64,000 nucleotides of DNA. Source: Hoplostethus atlanticus (taxonomy: Eukaryota; Chordata; Actinopteri; Trachichthyiformes; Trachichthyidae). Below are positions 1,066 to 55,486 of this stretch, piece by piece. The stretch lies in assembly GCA_034670405.1 (NCBI GenBank), contig JAXDDX010000044.1, positions 3,250,001 through 3,314,000 of the forward strand. Reading direction: 5' to 3'. The position numbers and the translations under genes are program-made. Position 1 is the first letter of the stretch; every line of letters starts with the position of its first letter. The notes under the pieces were generated by a model. That model saw nothing but the letters and a program-made list of their open reading frames with translations. It did not search any database and was not told where the DNA came from.

Positions 1066-1693
<628 letters not shown>

Positions 1694-2507: not shown

Positions 2508-4944
2508 TTAAGCTTCCCAAAACATCTCTAGGCAAAGGTAAACATCTGTCTTTATGTAACGGTGGTCCATCTCACCAATACGGCAGACTATCTCTTCACA
2601 ATCCTTGACAGTGCTGGCTCGCAGTGCCACACAGCAGAAGCTTGTTGACTGAGGTGTTTCTGGGGCGTCTCTGTGAACAGAGCCAATCACATGCTTAGAT
2701 TACATCTGGGTTCAGCCAATGACAACAGACCTGTAATGGTTTGGGGATTGCATCACTGTCATGTCTCTACGGAGAGGTGCGACAGGGGCTTGCAGCGCTT
2801 CTGGATTACCATGGACGCATGGTAACCCCTGCATGAATTATGCAATACAAACATCCCAGCCCACTGAGAGATCTTCCTAGATGATGCTTAAATGTGGACT
2901 ATGTTTGCTATTTACTCTGCATGTGCAGCTTCTAGAACAGTGGTCCTCAAATCCGGGCCTCGGGGTGCAGAGTACTGCTGGTTTTCTATTCTGCCAGGTA
3001 CTTTCCATTCTAGCTGTCTAATCAGGGATTGATTAAGACCTGGGATGCCAGGTGAATGCAATTAACTTCCTGGTAGGAGAGAAAACGAGCAGCACTCTGG
3101 ACCCCGAGGCCCGGATTTGAGGAACTCTGCTCTAGAAGCTGCACATGCATTTATATTAGACAAGACTTACTTGCAAGGTTCAGTATAAAAATGTCGGTTT
3201 CCCACACCAAAATACTTACACCACACAGAATGCAAATATTGTGTAGTCTGATTGACCATACCGCCCTACACATGAGATCTCTGGGTAGTGATGCTGGAAT
3301 AGCTCCTGAGGGGAAAACAGACACACAAAACAATCAGCATGTTATGACAGGATAATTCATTGCTGTTATTCAGCAGCGGGCAGTTCACTCATATTCTGAC
3401 AGAATATAGCAGACAGGGAGCCTGGTTATTAATCCTTGGTCAAAAGCAGACCGCATGCACATAAATTATGAACACAGCCAATGCTTCTACTCACCAGCTT
3501 ACTATTTTTCTCTGTGCATGTCAAATGTGTTTCCTTCATGTCTAAGAGCACTTCCTGCAGGGAAAATGACTGATTGAGTGCATGGTGATATTCAGGATCA
3601 AGTGTTTCCTAGAATACAATAATGTCCGACACCGACTAGATCAAATGTGTCCTCAAGCAAGGAATGGCTCTACTACCTTGCTAGGCAGGTTTTTCTGCAA
3701 GACTTGCGGTATTACGTGCTGCAACACCTCCTTGCCTCCAAACTAGGAAAAGAGTAGACCAGCTGTCAGTGTTGGATAACTCTTTCTCACAGCACACTGC
3801 ACTCACACAGACACACTGACAAAGACATAAGGACGCCATTTGATTTGACACAAAACCATAAAGTACACGACAAAGACACAATAACGCAAGTCGCTGAGGA
3901 CACAAACATCAAATTATAATGCACAAACATATCTACCATTCCAATGTTTGCCTTTCCCAAGAACTGCACAATGTACACAATCCTGCTGAGGAGAGGTGGT
4001 TCAGTGTTTCAATGGATGTCACACAAAACTGTTCAATATCCCCAATCTCGATTCAACAGATACTTCTAAAGATCACATTAGGTAGAACAGGTACATTCAG
4101 CAAACAGTCTTCCATACGATTTAACTGTGAGGAGGTGGTAAACCGACTTGCCTTCCCTCTTTGAGACACTGTGACGGACGCTGGTCCTCGTTGGCTGACG
4201 GCTGAGAAGAAGCAGGCCCAAGCTGCAGAGTGGGGTTCTCCACCCTCAGGGCCCGGAGGAGTTTGATGAGGGGCCGATAGACAGCGCCGTCCCGGTCCCT
4301 CCATCGCAAAACACGTATGGAGAGAGGGCAGCCTTTCAGGCGAGACAGAACCACACCTGCCTGGCAAGTCAGAGGAAATTGCAGTTCTCCAATGAAAAAC
4401 CATGACGTTTTATCGTAACACTTTGTGTAACAACTTCTAATGCTTGTACTGGGATGATCTGTCAGGGAATGCAAACAGGATTTCTCAATCATAAAAATGC
4501 ATGCTAGGTTTATCAAGGGCATTGCCGTGCGTGACAAGTAGTCATAAAAAGAGACAGTACATAAAGAATGTGTGTTTTATCATTTATCACCGCACAATAG
4601 CTTTACACGCTAGTGAATCTGTGTACATAGGACCTACTCAAAGAAACCTCAAACACCATCATAGAGTGAATCACTATTGTTTTTAAACATTATTGTGTTA
4701 TATCACTATATCATATAGAAAGTAGCAAAATGAACATTTATTTATTTCTATGAAAATGTCAGAGAGTAAAACTTTGATGTGCATGACTCCACCTTGTGAG
4801 GATTTTCTTACCTGTCCATTCCTGGAATTCCTCAGGGAGATTCCATTGATCTCATCGATGACATCACCAGGGCAGATAAACTTGTCTACCTGAGCCTGAC
4901 TACCAGGCAACAGCTCTAGGACAAAGACCCGCCCTCTGAGATAC

Positions 4945-4988
<44 letters not shown>

Positions 4989-7486
4989 CAGAGAGTGATA
5001 ATAATGATGTATAGATGTATGAACTGGCAGACACGTGCAGTGGAAAGATACGATTGATTCTGAGTGGAGGACACAAACCTTAGCACGACCCCTAGCTCCC
5101 GACAGGGTACTGCTTCATATATCTCACACACCTGGGAACACAAGTTGAGTTAACAACATACAGACAAAGCGAACTGCGAACATCATTTTCATTGAGATTT
5201 CATTATTTCCCACAAACCTCAGCTTGTGATATTTATCCATGGATTTATAGATTTATCATGGGCACTAAAACCAAAACATTGTTTATGAAATCCTAATGAT
5301 GGTGTCTTACTGGTAGGAGGCAGCTCTCGTCCAGAAAACTGCAGTTCTGTGTTGAGAGACCAGATGTGTTGTCAGCAAAGTATAATGGCTATCAATGTTG
5401 GCATACAGAGTTTTCATAGTTATGTAGCCTCTATAACACATGAGGAGTTTTATTCCAAAGTGAGATATCTACCATTTGAAAGAATTAATATCTACTCTTA
5501 CTAAATGATGTGCTTACAACAGTAAAGCACATTAATAGTTACTATGAACCTCTTGAACCCCCATAGACAGACAGACCCAAACCCCAAAAAAAAATAGCTC
5601 CACAACTATCAGGTCGATGTGCATGATCTCAGGCTCTATGGATAGACAACACCTTTGAAAATCTAAACCCAAGTGACCTCAGTAACCTTGAGACTGTTAC
5701 TGTTCATTTCAACGACATCAGAAAGTGAATAATACCATGATCGCAATGATCCCATGGACAGATGTTTCATAACTCCAATATTGCAATTATTGCCTATCAG
5801 ACATGGTTTTGGCAATTTTCTTTCAACTTTTTGTCAGCCATAACTCCAAGCACCATTCCAGCATTTTGGAATGAAAACTTGCATATATATAGACCTTTAT
5901 TGAGGATTTCTTGGCATACACAAGCATTTGCTCTGACCTCCATGTCCAGTTTGAACTCCATCTGAGAGAGGACCAGCAGCAGTGACATGAAAGGCTCTGG
6001 AAAAGGAAGGATATGTCACTATCAGGATTGTTGTTGGTGGCATGTGATGACAACATTTTCCTTAGCGTGGCTTAATCACCTGCCAAGTATTTGGTGAAAA
6101 AACAATCAGATAATGTAAAAAGCCTCACCCACAAATTCCTCATTCCTGAGGATTGAGCTAGCCGAGCTGTACCACTGGAAAAGAGCAAAATGATATAAAT
6201 TCAAATTCATCATTACTTGGACCTGTTTTGTTGTATTGAGTAAAGTGCAAAGTGCAATACAATGAGTACACACATTTTTAGTATAGGGGAAACAAGCCTC
6301 CAACCCTGGCTGTGTTGGTGCCCTGCTCTAGCCATTGAGCCACACAGCACCAAAATTGTAAAAAAAAAAAATGTCTGACCTCTAGGATTCTTGGTGTGTG
6401 TAGCAGGTGTGTGATGAACTGCGGTAGGGCCTTGCGGCTGAGGGCCAGCCTGAGGAGGTAGCGGCCTCGGCCCTGAGCTGTGAGCAGCTTCCTGCAAACT
6501 CTTGCCTGCTCAACCGCCAGAGACAAAGTACACAGCCTACAAACACCAGCAAGACAACAGGGATTATATAAATTTGGATTGGTGCTGCTTGATTATATTA
6601 TATTGCTGTTTTCATTATGGGAATATTATTAATAATTGTAATTTCTAGGCTGTCACTGTGTTGTTACCTGCCGCAGGTGTCTTGGTGGGGAAGCTGTTCA
6701 AAACACTGCCAGTAGTCTCTGTGTACTAGACTCAGAACCGGTTCTGAGGGGAGAGAGCAGACATACAGTCTCATCATAATGGGAAAAAAAAATACATTTC
6801 ACATATACTTAAGATGTTTAGAGATATGTTTCAAAATGCCCAAAATATAATGGATATATTGCAAGATATAGTGCATAATTTGAAACATACAAATGTACAT
6901 ATGTGTTTTTTGTTTTTTTGCAGTATTACCACATGCAAAAGACATGAATGAAATACTTAGTACACGCAGATATTATTCGGGTACTCACGTTGGAGTCCTT
7001 TCCTGAGGATGAGTTCAAGAAGCTCACAGCAGGACGCGAGGTGAGGGTTGCTGTCTGTCACCATCTCTCCATCTGACTGCAGGTTCAGGAGACACACTGG
7101 GAGGAAAAAAAAGACACGGCCATGTAAGCGCTCCAGTTCCCACGCAACCTCCTGGAACATCACCTTTTTGCACGATAGCCTCATCATTACTGGCCTGGGT
7201 GTGACAGAAAAGAGGCAAGGCAAAGCGTATACGACCTGGGAGATTGTATTTACAGTAATAAAAATGAGCTTTTATGGGCTGTTGTAAATAGAAAACTAAA
7301 ACTGCTACGCGAATGGTTGGATCAAAGCAGAATGACAGGTCTGATCAAAAGTCGTTAATTTTGATTAAACTGACCGATACAGTCAGCTACCTGTGCAAAT
7401 CCGAAACGCAAATGATGAACTAGTTGTGGCATATTATAACGGATTTTACCTTTGAGAGTCCCGAGTAGAGGATCTTTGGGTGCCAT
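2508..7486 (-). CDS. RUN-PDZ-PTB(PID) domain scaffold-like protein
   Basis: I do not recognise a named gene. Fifteen coding exons join in phase: 7450-7486, 6989-7096, 6668-6743, 6380-6536, 6129-6174, 5938-5996, 5311-5346, 5079-5131, 4812-4944, 4152-4360, 3937-3985, 3677-3742, 3495-3554, 3220-3305 and 2508-2670. The total is 1338 nt, or 445 residues. Residues about 15-165 resemble a RUN domain (GRGRYLLRLALSRKALPQF, then WYSSASSILRNEEF). Residues about 175-255 form a PDZ domain (CRELGVVLR, then CPGDVIDEINGISLRN, then AGVVLSRLKG). Residues about 305-445 look like a PTB/PID domain (RIVYIVQFLGKANIGM, GGKEVLQHVIPQVL, then YTIFAFCV and SFCCVALRAS). RUN domains often bind small GTPases, PDZ domains bind C-terminal tails and PTB domains bind NPxY-type motifs, so a membrane-trafficking adaptor is a reasonable inference. 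The exon at 4152 uses a GC donor; without it the protein would stop after the PDZ domain. The start was chosen as the first ATG in an exon with a good donor. Confidence 0.82.
2918..3149. mobile_element. Foldback (MITE-like) element with long imperfect terminal inverted repeats
   Basis: The two ends are reverse complements over roughly 65 bases with a few mismatches. The left arm starts TGCATGTGCAGCTTCTAGA and runs into CCTCAAATCCGGGCCTCGG. The right arm starts CCGAGGCCCGGATTTGAGG and ends TCTAGAAGCTGCACATGCA. The unique centre of about 100 bp has no coding capacity. This is the structure of a non-autonomous foldback element. It lies downstream of the H3.3 3'UTR, inside the last intron (2671-3219) of the RUN-PDZ-PTB gene. 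Family assignment needs a repeat library. Confidence 0.7.
4947..4995. repeat. (GA)n microsatellite at a splice acceptor
   Basis: A GA dinucleotide run with a few interruptions. On the minus strand it is a CT tract that serves directly as the polypyrimidine tract of the acceptor for the exon at 4812-4944 of the RUN-PDZ-PTB gene. Confidence 0.9.
6290..6360 (-). mobile_element. tRNA-derived SINE fragment
   Basis: On the minus strand the sequence reads like a tRNA-derived SINE head. An A-box-like TGGCTCAATGGCTAGAGC is followed about 30 bases later by a B-box-like GGTTGGAGGC. It lies in the intron between the exons at 6380-6536 and 6129-6174. An adjacent T-rich/A-rich stretch at 6359-6371 belongs to the intron. 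The fragment is short and the family is not assigned. Confidence 0.5.
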
Positions 7487-7899
7487 ATTGTGGGACCAGC
7501 TGTGATCGCAGGTTGGTGGTGAACACGACACAAACTACACATACACTTCCGCTTATCAAAAACACAACATACCGAGACTCTTTCCTATTCCGTAATACCG
7601 TAGACAGCAGGAATGGCAGTTGGGTGGGTTTGTATGATTTCTCCTTCCTTCCACTATATACAACAAACGGTCGAAATCATCACACTCGGGATATATGTTT
7701 GCGCCGGTTGCCTGGTTATCGCATTTCCATCATTTTATTAAGGAACCTTGAAATAAAAGACATCGAGGTATGAACTGCACATTGGCAGTTGCGACCTCTG
7801 GTGGTCTGCTTTCAAAAATGCAGCACAGCGGAAACACCCGACCACTACCGAAGACCCCTGGACTCGTGCTGCCTTCAATGGCTCCTTGTAAAACTCCCA

Positions 7900-8440
7900 C
7901 TCCCGAGTACCGAAATGATAAATACGGCTTGTCGCTTCTACTGTATAAAAAGAAAAAAGCTGCCTGTCTTAAGTTTGCCAGAGACCACCTGGACAAACCT
8001 GAAGATTTCTGGAAGTCTGTTGAACAACATTGAACTGCTTGGTCAGAATCAGAAATGCATCAAAACATCCCACGACCAAAATAACCTTATCCCTATGGTC
8101 AAGCATGGTGTTGGGAGTGCCATGGTCTGGGGCTGTTCTTGTTCCTCTGGACCTGACCTGGATCCTAAGCATTCAAGCAAATCTACCAAAGAACGGCTCA
8201 GGAAGAAGAAGTTTAATGTTTTGGATTGGCCAAGTTAGTCCTGACCTAAATCCAGTTGATGTTGTAGCAGGACCTAAAGCAGGATGTTCATGTGAGACTC
8301 CCTCAAACCTCACTATGTTGGCCGAGTTCTGTAAGGAGTAGGAGAAAATACCTCAAGGAAGATGCCAGAGGCTGATCAGTGGCTATAGATAGATATTTAC
8401 TCCAAATCAGCACTGCTAAAGGAGAAATTATTGACTGAGG
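7900..8440 (+). pseudogene. Decayed Tc1/mariner transposase
   Basis: Broken pieces of a Tc1-like transposase can be read in several frames: CLKFARDHLDKPEDFW, then NLIPMVKHGVGSAMVWGC, then HSSKSTKERLRKKKFNVLDW, a degraded DLNPVD motif, and a final PSNLTMLAEFCKE. The order matches the C-terminal two thirds of Tc1 transposases. Frameshifts, stops and loss of the N-terminal DNA-binding part show it is dead. No terminal inverted repeats were recognised. It lies between the 5' end of the RUN-PDZ-PTB gene and the 3' end of trpm4. The extent is approximate. Confidence 0.88.
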
Positions 8441-8519
8441 GAGTTCACACAGAGATATCTGAGAAACCAGTTTTGTTAAATAAACAATGAAAGTACACCG
8501 CATTTATGTGTGCATGTTC

Positions 8520-9829: not shown

Positions 9830-12800
9830 TCAGGCTGAAGTGGAAGACGAGGGGAATGAGTCTGTGGAGTGAAGGAGACAGAGTGGGAGATCATTTATTT
9901 GACCACAGGTATAAATGGTTAGTGGCAAATATTGTGGCTAGATATCATGGTAAGCAAGTCAAACAAGCATAGTGAATACAACCTGTGACCTACTACCATG
10001 TGGTTTCTTTTGTATTTATCTACACCTGTATAAAGTTATGTTCTGATTTCATAACTTGTGGCCACAAGTACCTTTAAAAGCAGGTGGAGGTCGAGTGGGT
10101 TTGACCATGCTGCCTTGTGCCAAGGTATCCACAATCCAGCTGAGAGCGTTGGAGCAATACTCCATCTGAAAAGGCACATGAAAAGGGCTAAAGCTGTACA
10201 ATGGCATACAGTAACTCCCAAACTCTAATTTAAAGCAGCTCTGAGAGAAGAGTGAGTATTATTTTTGGTATGCTATACACGAGAAGTCATTACAGTTAGG
10301 AGGCCGGCGCAGACCAGAGACACGCTTCGAATAGACAGCTTTAGTTTTACCTCAGTCTCCAAGGCCCTCAGCCTGTGGTCCAAGTCTCTGGTTTCAGTCA
10401 GCTGTTTCATCACAGTGTCCACTCTGCCAAACAAAACATTCACCTCAATACGATGGAGCCAGATTTAGCAACTACAAGTACTATGCCACAAGTTAGAAGA
10501 AACATCACTAATTGAGATGGACTGAAAGGCTACAGAGGGAAGGTATGTCAGCTTACTTGGCAGACATCCGTTTGAGCCTCTCAGAGTCGCTACCTCTCTG
10601 GATCTTGCCCTGGGCGGTCAGGAAGTTCTCCTTCTGAATGGTTTCCCATGTCATTAGCCTGTTAGCCGCTTTACCTCTTAGCTGCAATACTAATGAAGAC
10701 AATATGGCAGTATTATTATCGTTTCTTACTCAAGGACACTTAGCATTCTGGTAGCTCAACAAAGGCATGCTATTCTACAAATTCAAACACCACATTGACA
10801 GTGACTGGAGGCCCACTACATGACACCTGGGCATGCACTGTGAATTTACCAATGATTCCAACCCAAAGTTTTTCCAATGTTAATTAAGAAAAAAAAAAAT
10901 CTATTGCATTCAGCTGACTCACTCAGATACTTCAAATACTGACCAAAGTGGTGGATCTTGACGGAGGGAAGCTTGCGGATGTTCCTCTTGATGAAGAGGT
11001 GGAGGTGAGAGAGGATGATGAAAGGGGGGGCCAGGGAAGGACGGGAGTGGTACTGCACAATCAGGTTGTAGCGCTGGAACTTCCAGTGGACGTCGCTGTT
11101 CTCCTGAACCTTGGAGAAGGTGTGGCTGAATGGAGGGAAGAAGAAAAGAAAAAAGCTTTTTTTTGTCCCATTTATATGTGAACAACTGAAAAACAATGAA
11201 GCTGAGCGAGATGAAGTTTGATGGGGAAGGAGAGAGGAGAGATAAGAGATAAGAGAGGAGGGCCAGCGTAAGAACAGAGAAAGCATGCCAGAGTAGCTAC
11301 CAAGACAGAAAGATGGGAAAATTCCCCCCATGTTGTCTACCTAAACATAGCGATGAGCAGATTGATGAGCAGGATGTTGGTGACCAGCAGGTAGATGACC
11401 AGCAGAATTACGACCAGCCAGTTGCCGTACGGGTTCCTGCAGGGCTCTTCACCGGCCTGGATCAGGGTTACGTTGTCTGTGCAGGGCATGTCCCACTCTT
11501 TCCCCACTTGGATGGACACAACAATACAGAGAGGATGAAAAAACTCCCATTCCTTTCATCTCTATCAATATCAATATTAACTTCTCTATGCTGGACCAGG
11601 TTATTATTGCAATAACTACTAATTGCTGCAGTGAACTTTGAAGCATGGTTTAAAAAGCTGCGATGTGTATACCATATACAAATACAATGCTCTTACATTG
11701 ATCTGAAACTAAAACAATTGCATTTCTCCTCCCATCCACAACACACACACACTTATACCATCTATCTCTTCCACAGGGATCTGTCCAAAGATGTGCAAGT
11801 ACGGTCTGTAGAATACTCGGCGGAAGATGCGATCTGGACGGGGATCGTAAGAGTAGATCAAAGCCTGATTGGCTACTCCATATGCCATAAGCCACACCCC
11901 CAGGAAGAAGAGGAAGAAGAAGACATCCTTCATCTGAATAGAGGGAAATGATCATTACTATGCCAATATCTCACTTAATACCTTTTGACTGATGCCACCT
12001 TATGACCACCTTTTGACATATCTCACCATCTTGCCAACGATGATGATTTTTGGTCCTAGTTGTCTGTGAATGGCGAAGATGTGGATGAGACGGAGGGTGA
12101 AGACCATGTAGTCCACACACAGGGCACCTCGGCCAAACTCATGCGACCACTTAAACATCCTGACACACAGGCAGAGCAAACCAAATGCGATTTAAGAGAT
12201 TACTACTGTAGTACTGGTATTTACACGTTGATCTTTACACTCTAAAAGGTGTTGGTGTAATGCAGCAATAATATATAAATGGCTCCTGTGTAAGCCTGCT
12301 CCCTACCTGCAGATCAGCCCTATGATGAACAGGATGATGGCAGTAAGATCACACTTGTTCCACACATCCTGTATGTACAGCCTCATCCTCTGGCGCCAAG
12401 TCATGGTTCCCACAAAGCACGTCTTGGAGGAGAAAACATCAATCAACTTCACTGGAACTTATTCTACTGTTGCAATTTGTATGTCTCTCTGGATGAGATG
12501 TCAATGTAAAGCGCAAAATGTCATGTAAGGAAATGCAATGTAAGGATGTCCTCTCTCCACTCACCTCCCGGATCTCCTCACACACAATGGTGAAGACCCA
12601 GAAGTACAGCACGTACTCAGAAATGGCCGGGCCAAAAGGGGGTGGACCCTTGAAATCCACCAATAGCACGTAGGCAAAAAGAAGGAGGAAGAGGAAGTAC
12701 ATCAGCACGTTGCCCAAAAAGGAGGTGACGGGTGCGAACCAGAACTGACGCCATCTTGACACCACGAAAGGGCGCTTTGGCGGTCGGGGAGAGTGGGGTA

Positions 12801-15800
12801 TCCCTGTAAGGAAAGTGATTGGAACCGGATTGGAAGATGGTCACTGCAATACCACACAATTACAATAGGGGCACTAGCTCCCCATGGGCATAAATGTTTA
12901 CTCAATTAGCCTTTATTTATTAAAAAAAAGAAAAAGTCTCAGGTCTGTTGAGGTCCAGAGTTGCTGACTGTTAAACAGGACTCACCTTTCATAGTTGCTG
13001 ATGTGGGACTGTTTGCTCCCTGGGTGTCAGATTCACTGGAATGACAACAAGACATTTTTAGTTACCACAAACTGAAGCAAAACTAGCAAGAACGAACGCT
13101 CTATAGAAGGAGTCCTATATCAGTGTATATGGGAATATTACATGTGCTTGATGTCAGAGAAAGAGAAGATGGTGGTCCCATAATTTTCATCCTGGCCCAG
13201 TGCGTCGTCGCTAGGCTTCTCCGGCTCATCTTTCTGCTGGTCCTCGTGTTCCCTGTGAGGCAGAGTATGATGCAAAATTTTAGAATACAATACAACACAT
13301 GTATAAGTAGAGTTTGAGTGTGTGTGTGTTAAAAGTGAAATTACTGACATTTCTGAAATCTGAAACTTCTGGGTGCTAATGACAAAAAAAGAAAGAACTG
13401 AGTCAGGGTAAAATCAGAGTGAATGTGGAGCCTGTGGAGTTGACCTGAAGGAGATGAGGTTGGTGTAGCAGAGGAAGGGGCAGAAGAAGGTAAGGACGTG
13501 CTTCCACACCTCCGTGCTCCTCTTCATGTCACCCCACCAGATCTGGGACAGCAGCGACTGGAGGAGAAGGGGGGTTGTGTTTGATTTATTGCACAACTTT
13601 AAAAAACAACAGAGTCCTACTTCACTCCACTGCGTCTTCAGACAGGCTTGAAAACAGAGCGACAAACCTGTACTCCGTCATGGCTGAAGAAAAGGCGTGC
13701 GTCGGCGGCCATGCCCATCTGGAGACAGGTGGTGCCGCCCCAAACCGGAGATTTCTTGATCAGCAGGGTGAAGGAGCGACTCTCACTGCTCTGATAGCAA
13801 GAGGCGAACACATCTGAGGGGAGGGAGAGTGCACACAAGACAAGTGCAGAAAGAGTTTTAGATATTCACCATTTGACTGTTCCTTTAAAATTTATTTTGG
13901 CAACATATTGATAAGCAGTCATTGCAGTTTTGCTGCACTTCCCAGAGATCACAATCAAACAGTGTGGTCAGTACTATGACGTCTTTTCCTTGGATTTTCG
14001 AGAAGGGCCTAAGCACGGGCTTGTGGGACGGTGATATGTTAAACAATTTAAAAATATTAAGAAATTGAAACAGAACATTTTTAATGTGTTAATCAAAAAC
14101 CAATGTGCTACCAGACACTAAAAATAGGGTGCCACCTGTGAATACAATCTGTAATTACATCAGATAACCAGCAGATGGCAATGAACGTAGTAAATTTGAC
14201 TGACATGTTTGGCTCCGCCCATGTTTAATATGTCACTGTCCTGCAAACCCACAGATTTTCTGTTGATGAACTTTGAATTTCTGTAGGTGGCGATCGCTGC
14301 TCAACAACTTTCATTAGCTACTGAGGAAACAAATTGCATTGCTTCCTGTGTGCCAGAGGATTAATATGGAGTGAATATGATGTAAATATAATTTACACAC
14401 AAGATGAGACGATGAGATGTGAAACAAGACGTCCACTCATCTTTCTGGCATGTTTGTGTTTGAGTTACTGTAGTAATTTGAGGACGTTTGAGTGAAAGGA
14501 CTCACCATGTGCCAGGTTCTCAAACCTCTGTGCCAGCTCTTTCATGGACAGCTTGGTCTCAGCCTCACTCTCCAGCTTGGACAGCTCCCTCAGTATCTTA
14601 CAGCCGCTCAGAGCGCTCAGCACCGACTCCCCTGCCTGAGAGAGGAAAAGAGGAGTAGGGCCTAGTAGAAACTCCCTCCACATTAGCTACTCTTTGGTTA
14701 TTATACTTTGCTATGAAGTTGTTGGACGTCATCGTCAGTAGGAAAGGTACACGGTTCATTCTTTTCATACAATTTTTCCTCTTGATCAGAGCTCCTTTCT
14801 GTAAAGACACACTCATGGCTGATTTTCACTGGAGAAATAGGTAAGTGTAAGAGTGTAGTTCAAGAATAAAATGACAGCAGCTGAACTGAAGTGGATTGGA
14901 ATGAACTGTATTAGATAGGTGAACGGTGTGAAGTGGCCAATCACCTTCAACCATGTGCAAATTACCCAATATGTAGTAGTAGTAACATTTTTTTTCCGAC
15001 ACACCACATCTTTCTGAAATATCAATTTAGCAATTAGACAAGACCCGATACAGACTTTCTGAACCCTTTCAACTTTTTCAATGTTTCAAAGCCAATAAAT
15101 CGGAGCCTTCCACGAGCATAAGAAGCTTTTACCATCTCCCAGAAGAAGACGGCCATCTCGCTGCGGTTCTGTAGGACGGCCCAGATGAAGAGCGAAGCCC
15201 AGGGGAAGAGGCAGCGCTGATCCCTGTAGAAACATTCCCCACGCAGCAACTTACTGGCCCGCTAGGACCGAGGAAGGAAGACAGGGAAGAAAAGGTAGAC
15301 ACTGAGACAGCAAAAGACACAGGTGGCATGTTAAACTGTACATCAATAGTTGATCAAACCAAATAAAACATCTAACAAGATCTTATTTGATAACATACAA
15401 GATATGGAACACTTGAAAAGCGTCCAGTGCAGTATGAGCTGCACAGTCAGATAGCGGGCAAGTGGGTAAACAATGCAATGGGAGATATGTGAGCTATGGA
15501 GTACCTTGAGAGCCCTCCTCTTGGAGCAGATATCTTGTAGGCCCAGAACAGCATAGTAGAAATGCTGGCACACATCACCCATTAACACTTCCAGGACCCG
15601 CGACACCTGGAGAGACAAGGAATAGAGGCAACAAAGACAAGAGAGTGTGTAATAATATTATCATTGATTCTACACTAGGAAACCTATTGCAGAGGAATTT
15701 GCCAGCTAGTATTGACACCGAGTTTCTTGCCATACATGTGTTGTATACCAGGGTTGGGGACAATTTAAACACCTCAAAAAGACTGATCTCCTTCGCCGGC

Positions 15801-18185
15801 CCACTCTGTGTGTTCCCATCTGTAACTTTGACCGACGAGTCCAGCAGGTTAGCCAACGAGTGGGTCGAGTACGAGGTTCCCTGTCGCTCCGCAAGGCGGC
15901 GCTGTAGCAGCCGGTAGGCCAGCGTGCTGTCGGCCACTGAGCGGTAGAGGCTTTCCAGCCTGCCGTAGGTCAGGTAGTCCAGGATGTTGAGGCCATTCTC
16001 AGTGAAGAGGCGGACAAACTGAGGCTTGTCGTTGACCAGTGCGTCTGTCATGGAGTCCTCCAGGTCTTCGTACTATTGGATGGATGAAGGTGACAGGTTA
16101 TTCTGGTGTTGTTTAATATGTGATTTAGTAAGAGTGATTCTCTATGTAATTTTACTATGATAATTGTATGTTATTCCAAAACTGCATCTGTAGTGGTAAT
16201 ATTTCTGTGACTGCAACATCAGATGTGATGTATTTTTTATCCTCACCCTCCAGTGGATGTCTCCATTGAACAGCTCACTCTTGGCAATATCCACTCTGTT
16301 CCAGGTGACTGCTAGCTTCAGCTCCTCAGCGTAAGGGCTGGCGTCACTTGACACACGATGCTTGCTAGCTGAAACACACACACACACCAAAAATAATGAA
16401 GTGATGTAACTGACAACCTTTTCAATCTGTGTAATATGGATTAGTGGCCTGTACCTCCCACCAAGGCCTTGAGCAGGACTGTGTCAAAGTCCTCTGGCCC
16501 CTCCTGTTCTCCATGGTAGACTGTGATGAAGTCTTTGTTCTGGTAGATGCTCAGAGTCTAGGAGAAGGAGACACAGTACGGGGAAAACATCTGATATGAT
16601 GCATCAATTGTATTCAGGAATATTGGATACGAGTACAATAGTTGTGATAGTCTAATAACGTGTGGTCTCATTAGGGGCCGGCCAGCTCTGCTGCTGGAAC
16701 TCTATGTTGTATTTCTATGTATTTTTCTTCTTACCAAAACTGCCTTCCCATACATGAAAATGCACAAAACCTTGCACACACAAAAAATCTGCAATAAATC
16801 TGCAATAAATCAGTTGTTCATCCTAGCTCTACTATTCCCAATACATTCGTCAATATGTGAAGAATCTTTGCTTTCCTACAACTTATAGTGAATTATGAAG
16901 TAAATCACTCTGGTTATATCACAAACTGTAAAATTCATTAAAGCTCCCACAGTTTATGTTCAAATGACACCAAACAATCTCCAGACCCTCACCAAAAACC
17001 AACCAGAGTTTTCTCTGTGGTTGGTTTACTAATCACACGGCCCTTACCCGCTCAACCAGTTTGTCTGTCACCGCTTCGTAAGGGAAGTGCTTCCTAGCCC
17101 GTTCAGCCACTCTGTCTTTCAGGTCAACACTAGGACCCCGCCTCACCATCTCCCTCAGTGGAGGACGGGGCAACAGGGGCAGATGACAGGTTCTCCAGGA
17201 TGTCACTCAAGAAGTCAGCCAAGCCTCCTGAACCAGCCAACACCAACCAGGGCATGGATTTCTTCAGAGAGAGATCCACTCTCTAATGAAAAAGAGGGAG
17301 GGAGGGAGGGAGGGAGGGAGGGAGGGAGGGAGAGGGAGAGAGACTTATCTCTTCACCTAGTACATCTCTATACTAGGGACAGGAAAAGTAATAAGCAAGT
17401 ACTAAATAAGAAGCAAGGGTCTCTTGGTCTGAGTATCTGTGTGGCCTAAATGTAATGTAAATCTTATTGGGTTAGTGAGTATCGAGATGAAGAGCAGTGA
17501 CTGTACCTCTAGCATAGTTGCCTCTCCTGATATCAGCATACAAAGGACAGGGATGTCAATGCTGCCACTGCCTATAAGAATAAAATCCATTTCATAAAAT
17601 CATAGTTATAGTAGTAGAAAATAGTTCGAGTTATATTGGCGTCCCTTTGATACAGACATTAGGGCTGTTTTTTGCAGACCTGCAGTGAACAAACCACACC
17701 TTGTTCTTTTCACCCAACAATTTAAACAAAATATCTGAAGAAGACCCCTGTTCAGTCTTGAATTTACATGTTGAAGAGCTCAGTCTGAAAATCATGCAGT
17801 GGCATGTAATGGCGTTTGCCCAACGCATGCCAAAGGATAATCCTATCACCATACAGTAATAAGGAACCACCACAAGGTGGCCAAAATGACTAAAAATAGA
17901 TTGAACAATGCATGGAGTTCACAGTTTAGTATTACACTTGCTAAACATATCCCTCTGTTGTTTTCTTTACATCCATTCAGCTGCACTGCCCCCCCCCCCC
18001 AGCCACAGCAAGGAAGATGTAAAGATTCACAATACAGCCGTACTCTTTGTGATGTTAGTATGTAAACAAGCACAACTGGCAATAGTACTCATGCTGGGAA
18101 TGAGAGCAAGAATGCTGCCCCCCCCCCCCCCCCGTATCCGCTGATAGTATTTCATGCTATTACAACACTGTCTGTACTGTAGTTA

Positions 18186-41471: not shown

Positions 41472-55486
<14,015 letters not shown>

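Follow-up and report, generated by a model that had tools for sequence, protein, structure and literature searches.

Gene structure and splicing

We analyzed a 64,000-nucleotide (nt) stretch of contig JAXDDX010000044.1 from Hoplostethus atlanticus (the window) and characterized a gene on its minus strand, from 7486 to 2508, that encodes a predicted adaptor with RUN, PDZ, and putative PTB domains. Reassembly of the minus strand joined 15 exons in phase into one 445-residue frame (1338 nt; exons of 36 to 209 nt) running from an ATG at 7486 to a TAA at 2508, its sole stop, which bore out the exon count, phasing, and length given in the original prediction. The exons and a possible polyadenylation signal are as follows.

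7450–7486, minus strand: exon 1; start codon, residues 1-12; ATG within AATATGG, donor GTAAAA
6989–7096, minus strand: exon 2; start of the RUN domain
6668–6743, minus strand: exon 3; RUN domain
6380–6536, minus strand: exon 4; RUN domain, carrying R97, R99, and R103 (equivalents of PLEKHM1 R117, R119, and R123, by our numbering)
6129–6174, minus strand: exon 5; RUN domain
5938–5996, minus strand: exon 6; end of the RUN domain
5311–5346, minus strand: exon 7; linker between RUN and PDZ
5079–5131, minus strand: exon 8; start of the PDZ domain, ELGV replacing GLGF
4812–4944, minus strand: exon 9; PDZ core, including GDVIDEING
4152–4360, minus strand: exon 10; end of the PDZ domain and linker to the putative PTB domain; GC donor
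3937–3985, minus strand: exon 11; first strand of the putative PTB domain (RIVYIVQFLGKANIGM)
3677–3742, minus strand: exon 12; putative PTB domain
3495–3554, minus strand: exon 13; putative PTB domain
3220–3305, minus strand: exon 14; putative PTB domain
2508–2670, minus strand: exon 15; C-terminal helix of the putative PTB domain and stop codon
2386–2391, minus strand: possible variant poly(A) signal TATAAA (weak, consensus only)

Thirteen of the 14 introns have GT-AG boundaries. The exception, intron 10 (4151-3986), separates the PDZ linker from the PTB domain and is of the GC-AG type; its donor context, AAG|GCAAGT, is a usual form of a GC donor. Each domain match crosses several exon joins (RUN, exons 2-6; PDZ, exons 8-10; PID, the Pfam family for PTB, exons 12-15), which makes chance joining unlikely. 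The two alternative frames of the spliced sequence contain 21 and 16 stops, and GC content at third codon positions is 0.59, well above the intron GC content of 0.39. Gene structure and domain order are established, and we regard the gene as real and convincing in structure.

Intron 10 is also where RUN-PDZ and PTB, if they were two adjacent genes, would have been wrongly joined. Its GC donor gives this reading some room, as does a GT donor (GTCGGT) 4 nt farther on that would allow in-phase splicing of exon 10 to exon 12, with loss of the first PTB strand, and AATAAA/ATTAAA hexamers are present in introns 6 (two) and 9 (one). However, the intron is only 166 nt long, the phases on its two sides match (2 and 2), and it contains no AATAAA/ATTAAA; a second promoter and first exon would hardly fit there. 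We therefore judged two separate genes very improbable and retain the single gene. Counting against this simple model, early polyadenylation at the hexamers of introns 6 and 9 may produce shorter transcripts, and use of the GT donor makes an isoform without the first PTB strand possible.

At the 3′ end, AATAAA/ATTAAA is absent from 2300-2510, and a second poly(A) variant, AGTAAA, begins at 2413. An additional exon between exons 1 and 2 (∼7150-7190, by eye) was rejected, as two choices of acceptor led to a stop or a frameshift. Intron 8 (4945-5078, 134 nt) carries a GA microsatellite and is stop-free in all three frames on the strand of the gene; its retention would shift the frame. Two inverted copies of TGCATGTGCAGCTTCTAGA...CAAATCCGGGCCTCGG were seen by eye in intron 14 (∼2917-3150) and resemble the termini of a small mobile element of palindromic form.

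Domain assignment

Pfam recognized two domains in the whole protein above their cut-offs: RUN (PF02759) at residues 36-161 (E 2.5e-14; 54 bits against a cut-off of 22) and PDZ (PF00595) at residues 187-245 (E 4.4e-6; 27.4 bits against 23.2). The order of RUN, PDZ, and PTB proposed earlier was supported, but its third member scored below the Pfam cut-off and leans on a profile comparison.

The PTB domain stayed below threshold in the standard searches, a point against it. PID (PF00640) matched residues 340-426 at E 0.059 and 13.8 bits in the whole protein, under the cut-off of 20.9, and residues 305-442 alone reached E 0.0056 and 17.2 bits, still below it. These E-values count 24,736 models; for PID alone, named beforehand, the chance would be ∼2e-6 (whole protein) and ∼2e-7 (isolated part). 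Because phmmer matched the PTB part to no solved structure in the PDB at E up to 10, we compared it by hhalign with a profile built from eight manually entered PTB sequences. The resulting alignment was nearly full-length, from the FLG strand through the IGE helix, with a probability of 60%, E of 8.5e-5, and a score of 32.7. None of 200 shuffled sequences and none of 56 control stretches from the window reached this score (best, 20.3 in both cases), and the RUN and PDZ portions of this gene reached 11.2 and 9.7. The controls came from a 1628-residue open frame, cut into pieces, and from open frames 120-399 residues long on either strand; most are probably noncoding, and some overlap the RUN-PDZ-PTB gene. 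By eye, the main PTB strands stayed in register in three MAFFT modes.

Three further observations count against the assignment. True PTB domains scored 62-180 when left out of the profile one at a time, well above the 32.6 of the gene, and dropping single profile members moved the score of the gene between 23.4 and 44.0 and its probability between 9.8 and 92%. In addition, a phenylalanine of the C-terminal helix, which belongs to the peptide groove of NPxY-binding PTB domains and is present in seven of the eight comparison domains (Lys in APPL1), is not kept: its place is taken by Val435 in each of three MAFFT modes, which open an 8-residue gap, and by Asp427 when read without gaps. Its absence speaks against classical NPxY binding and weakened the suggestion that the protein links to NPxY-bearing receptors.

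The subthreshold PID score, the unstable hhalign probability, and the missing helix Phe would also suit a different PH-superfold domain (PH, FERM F3, or similar) in place of PTB. We consider this improbable: PID is the sole Pfam family found in residues 305-442 at E up to 1, and the alignment spans the FLG strand to the IGE helix, in an hhalign comparison that covered PTB and no PH or FERM profiles. Since the near full-length alignment beats shuffles and controls yet scores well below true PTB domains, the C-terminal domain is best called a divergent PTB.

Candidate ligand-binding features of PDZ and RUN

In the PDZ domain, GDVIDEING occupies residues 217-225, and ELGV (residues 185-188) stands in the place of GLGF, a loop with a role in PDZ domains. 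The closest solved PDZ sequences were those of InaD-like protein (6ird; E 1.1e-7), PSD-95 (2xkx; 0.00044), and PDZD7 (2eeh; 0.0024). By rule, class I PDZ domains carry His at alphaB1; here that position holds Asn233, opposite the His of SHEQAA in PSD-95, so this domain departs from the class I rule, a point that we set against the NPxY-receptor suggestion.

The best solved RUN relatives by sequence were FYCO1 (7bqi; E 0.0088), RUFY3 (2dwg; 0.01), PLEKHM2 (8jca; 0.042), and PLEKHM1 (8jc5; 0.057). The RUN segment GRGRYLLR aligns without gaps to GRCRAWLR of PLEKHM1, with R97, R99, and R103 at its three arginines, and this conservation of basic residues is established. We take the PLEKHM1 arginines to be R117, R119, and R123. 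The five basic residues so numbered match the numbers in PMC5379943, which reports R117, R119, R123, and H60 as important for Arl8b binding. When the C-x-x-L-E-x-x-x-x-(H/K)-G-L block, for which the PLEKHM1 letters were confirmed, was aligned by hand, K45 fell at H60 and Q48 at H63.

Other RUN proteins argue against reading a specific partner from these residues. The RUN domain of RUFY3 has the same three arginines, but the Arl8b site of RUFY3 was mapped to residues 441-561 (PMC8938454), and its RUN fragment, 83-255 (PMC7431699), is thus without that site. Conversely, the third arginine is Tyr in PLEKHM2, itself an Arl8b binder. The motif therefore names no partner, and supports a working RUN surface but no specific GTPase.

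Rap and Rab GTPases are the principal partners of RUN domains (PMC7431699), but kinesin-1, SNX1, and TrkA are among their partners too (PMC7431699, PMC3338420, PMC3634510). The protein could thus serve as a scaffold, with a RUN domain that binds proteins other than GTPases, such as motors, and with PDZ and PTB domains that are nonclassical modules, consistent with Asn233 at alphaB1 and the lost PTB Phe. However, of the four PLEKHM1 residues important for Arl8b binding, three are identical here and the fourth is basic, and we consider such a scaffold rather unlikely. Small-GTPase binding by the RUN domain, which the original prediction had proposed, is plausible given the three conserved PLEKHM1 arginines, although RUFY3 shares them and RUN domains have non-GTPase partners.

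Neighboring genes

A histone H3.3 gene (1069-1693, plus strand) neighbors the RUN-PDZ-PTB gene in a tail-to-tail arrangement; its coding sequence is complete and split over three exons, and ∼815 bases separate the coding ends of the two genes. On the other side of the RUN-PDZ-PTB gene, the plus-strand region ∼7950-8480 resembles a decayed Tc1-like transposase; Pfam assigned no family to the open frame there (7774-8238). The RUN-PDZ-PTB gene is downstream of a TRPM5 gene on the same strand. An exon of the latter at 15575-16072 (minus strand) had PDB TRPM5 chains as its best matches and a Pfam TRPM2-like domain, and a 64-residue stretch at ∼15.9-16.1 kilobases (kb) matched PDB TRPM5 at E 7.7e-17, whereas its best TRPM4 match had E 9.6e-8. 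The open frame 10846-11340, to which Pfam assigned no family, is presumably TRPM-like.

Farther along the window are a Ric8 gene (29.8-33.6 kb, plus strand) and an IRF gene (36.3-39.4 kb, minus strand), a fragment of which had no PDB match at E up to 0.01. A proline/glutamine-rich gene showed a subthreshold DUF4211 trace at 43605-43865 (minus strand; 20.1 bits against a cut-off of 27). Q, H, S, and P are abundant in a single 1628-residue open frame at 47596-52482 (minus strand), to which Pfam assigned nothing at E up to 1. We assume that the proline/glutamine-rich gene is PRR12/QSER1-like and that the 1628-residue frame is likely part of such a gene.

Proposed function and relation to known proteins

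On balance, we lean toward a single host gene for a 445-residue cytosolic adaptor with RUN, PDZ, and divergent PTB domains that would be recruited by a GTPase and couple cargo to membranes. Its RUN domain would bind an active small GTPase of the Arl8, Rab, or Rap type and so bring the adaptor to endosome or lysosome membranes, where the PDZ and PTB domains would grip membrane-protein tails or other scaffolds. Cargo would thereby be coupled to GTPase-marked membranes, in a manner comparable to APPL1 or RUFY/PLEKHM proteins. The GTPase binding, membrane site, and ligands are inferred; the protein is probably an endolysosomal, GTPase-linked adaptor with nonclassical PTB and PDZ specificity.

RUN-PDZ-PTB looks like a new, undescribed combination of known modules. 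We know of no human RUN protein with a PDZ or PTB domain. The original prediction could name no characterized vertebrate protein of this kind. A literature search aimed at the combination found no description of a RUN-PDZ or RUN-PDZ-PTB protein; it covered part of the papers that mention both RUN and PDZ domains and few of the subscription journals. PDZ is likewise unmentioned in the main text of two RUN reviews (PMC7431699, PMC3634510).

A 111-residue piece (PDZ core plus linker) matched eight loci in genome contigs, all bacterial and through the PDZ core only, which we regard as generic PDZ domains and not as orthologs; E-values in this search are relative to the candidate stretches. Viral contigs had no match to the whole protein (six peptide patterns), plasmids had none at E 1e-5, and NCBIfam gave none at E up to 0.1. 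These collections are prokaryotic or viral and thus uninformative on animal orthologs.

More tentatively, the gene may represent an undescribed animal family of RUN-PDZ-PTB adaptors, retained in fish and either lost or unrecognized in mammals, whose PDZ and PTB domains, of atypical specificity, connect transmembrane tails to a small GTPase. Should such a family exist and be missing from mammals, it would be a compact adaptor of three modules for which mammalian cell biology has never needed an explanation, and it would offer a natural way of testing which specificities for GTPases and tails can be combined on a single membrane. Should mammals instead carry it under a plain accession, it would be an uncharacterized trafficking gene. 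Either way, its parts are familiar.

The fish gene shares an N-terminal RUN domain with RUFY, FYCO1, and PLEKHM1/2. Those proteins bear coiled coils, FYVE, or PH domains, and to our knowledge none has a PDZ or PTB domain; Pfam found no FYVE domain in the whole fish protein at E up to 1, which sets it apart from the RUFY family. With InaD-like protein, PSD-95, and PDZD7, which are multi-PDZ scaffolds, only the PDZ domain is held in common. APBA/X11/Mint and RGS12 combine PTB and PDZ in one adaptor, as the fish gene does, but differ in domain order and number and are without RUN. In its proposed role, the protein also resembles APPL1/2, BAR-PH-PTB effectors of Rab5: these too are GTPase-recruited endosomal adaptors with a PTB domain whose helix Phe is replaced (Lys in APPL1), but they have BAR-PH in place of RUN-PDZ and bind their GTPase through another surface.

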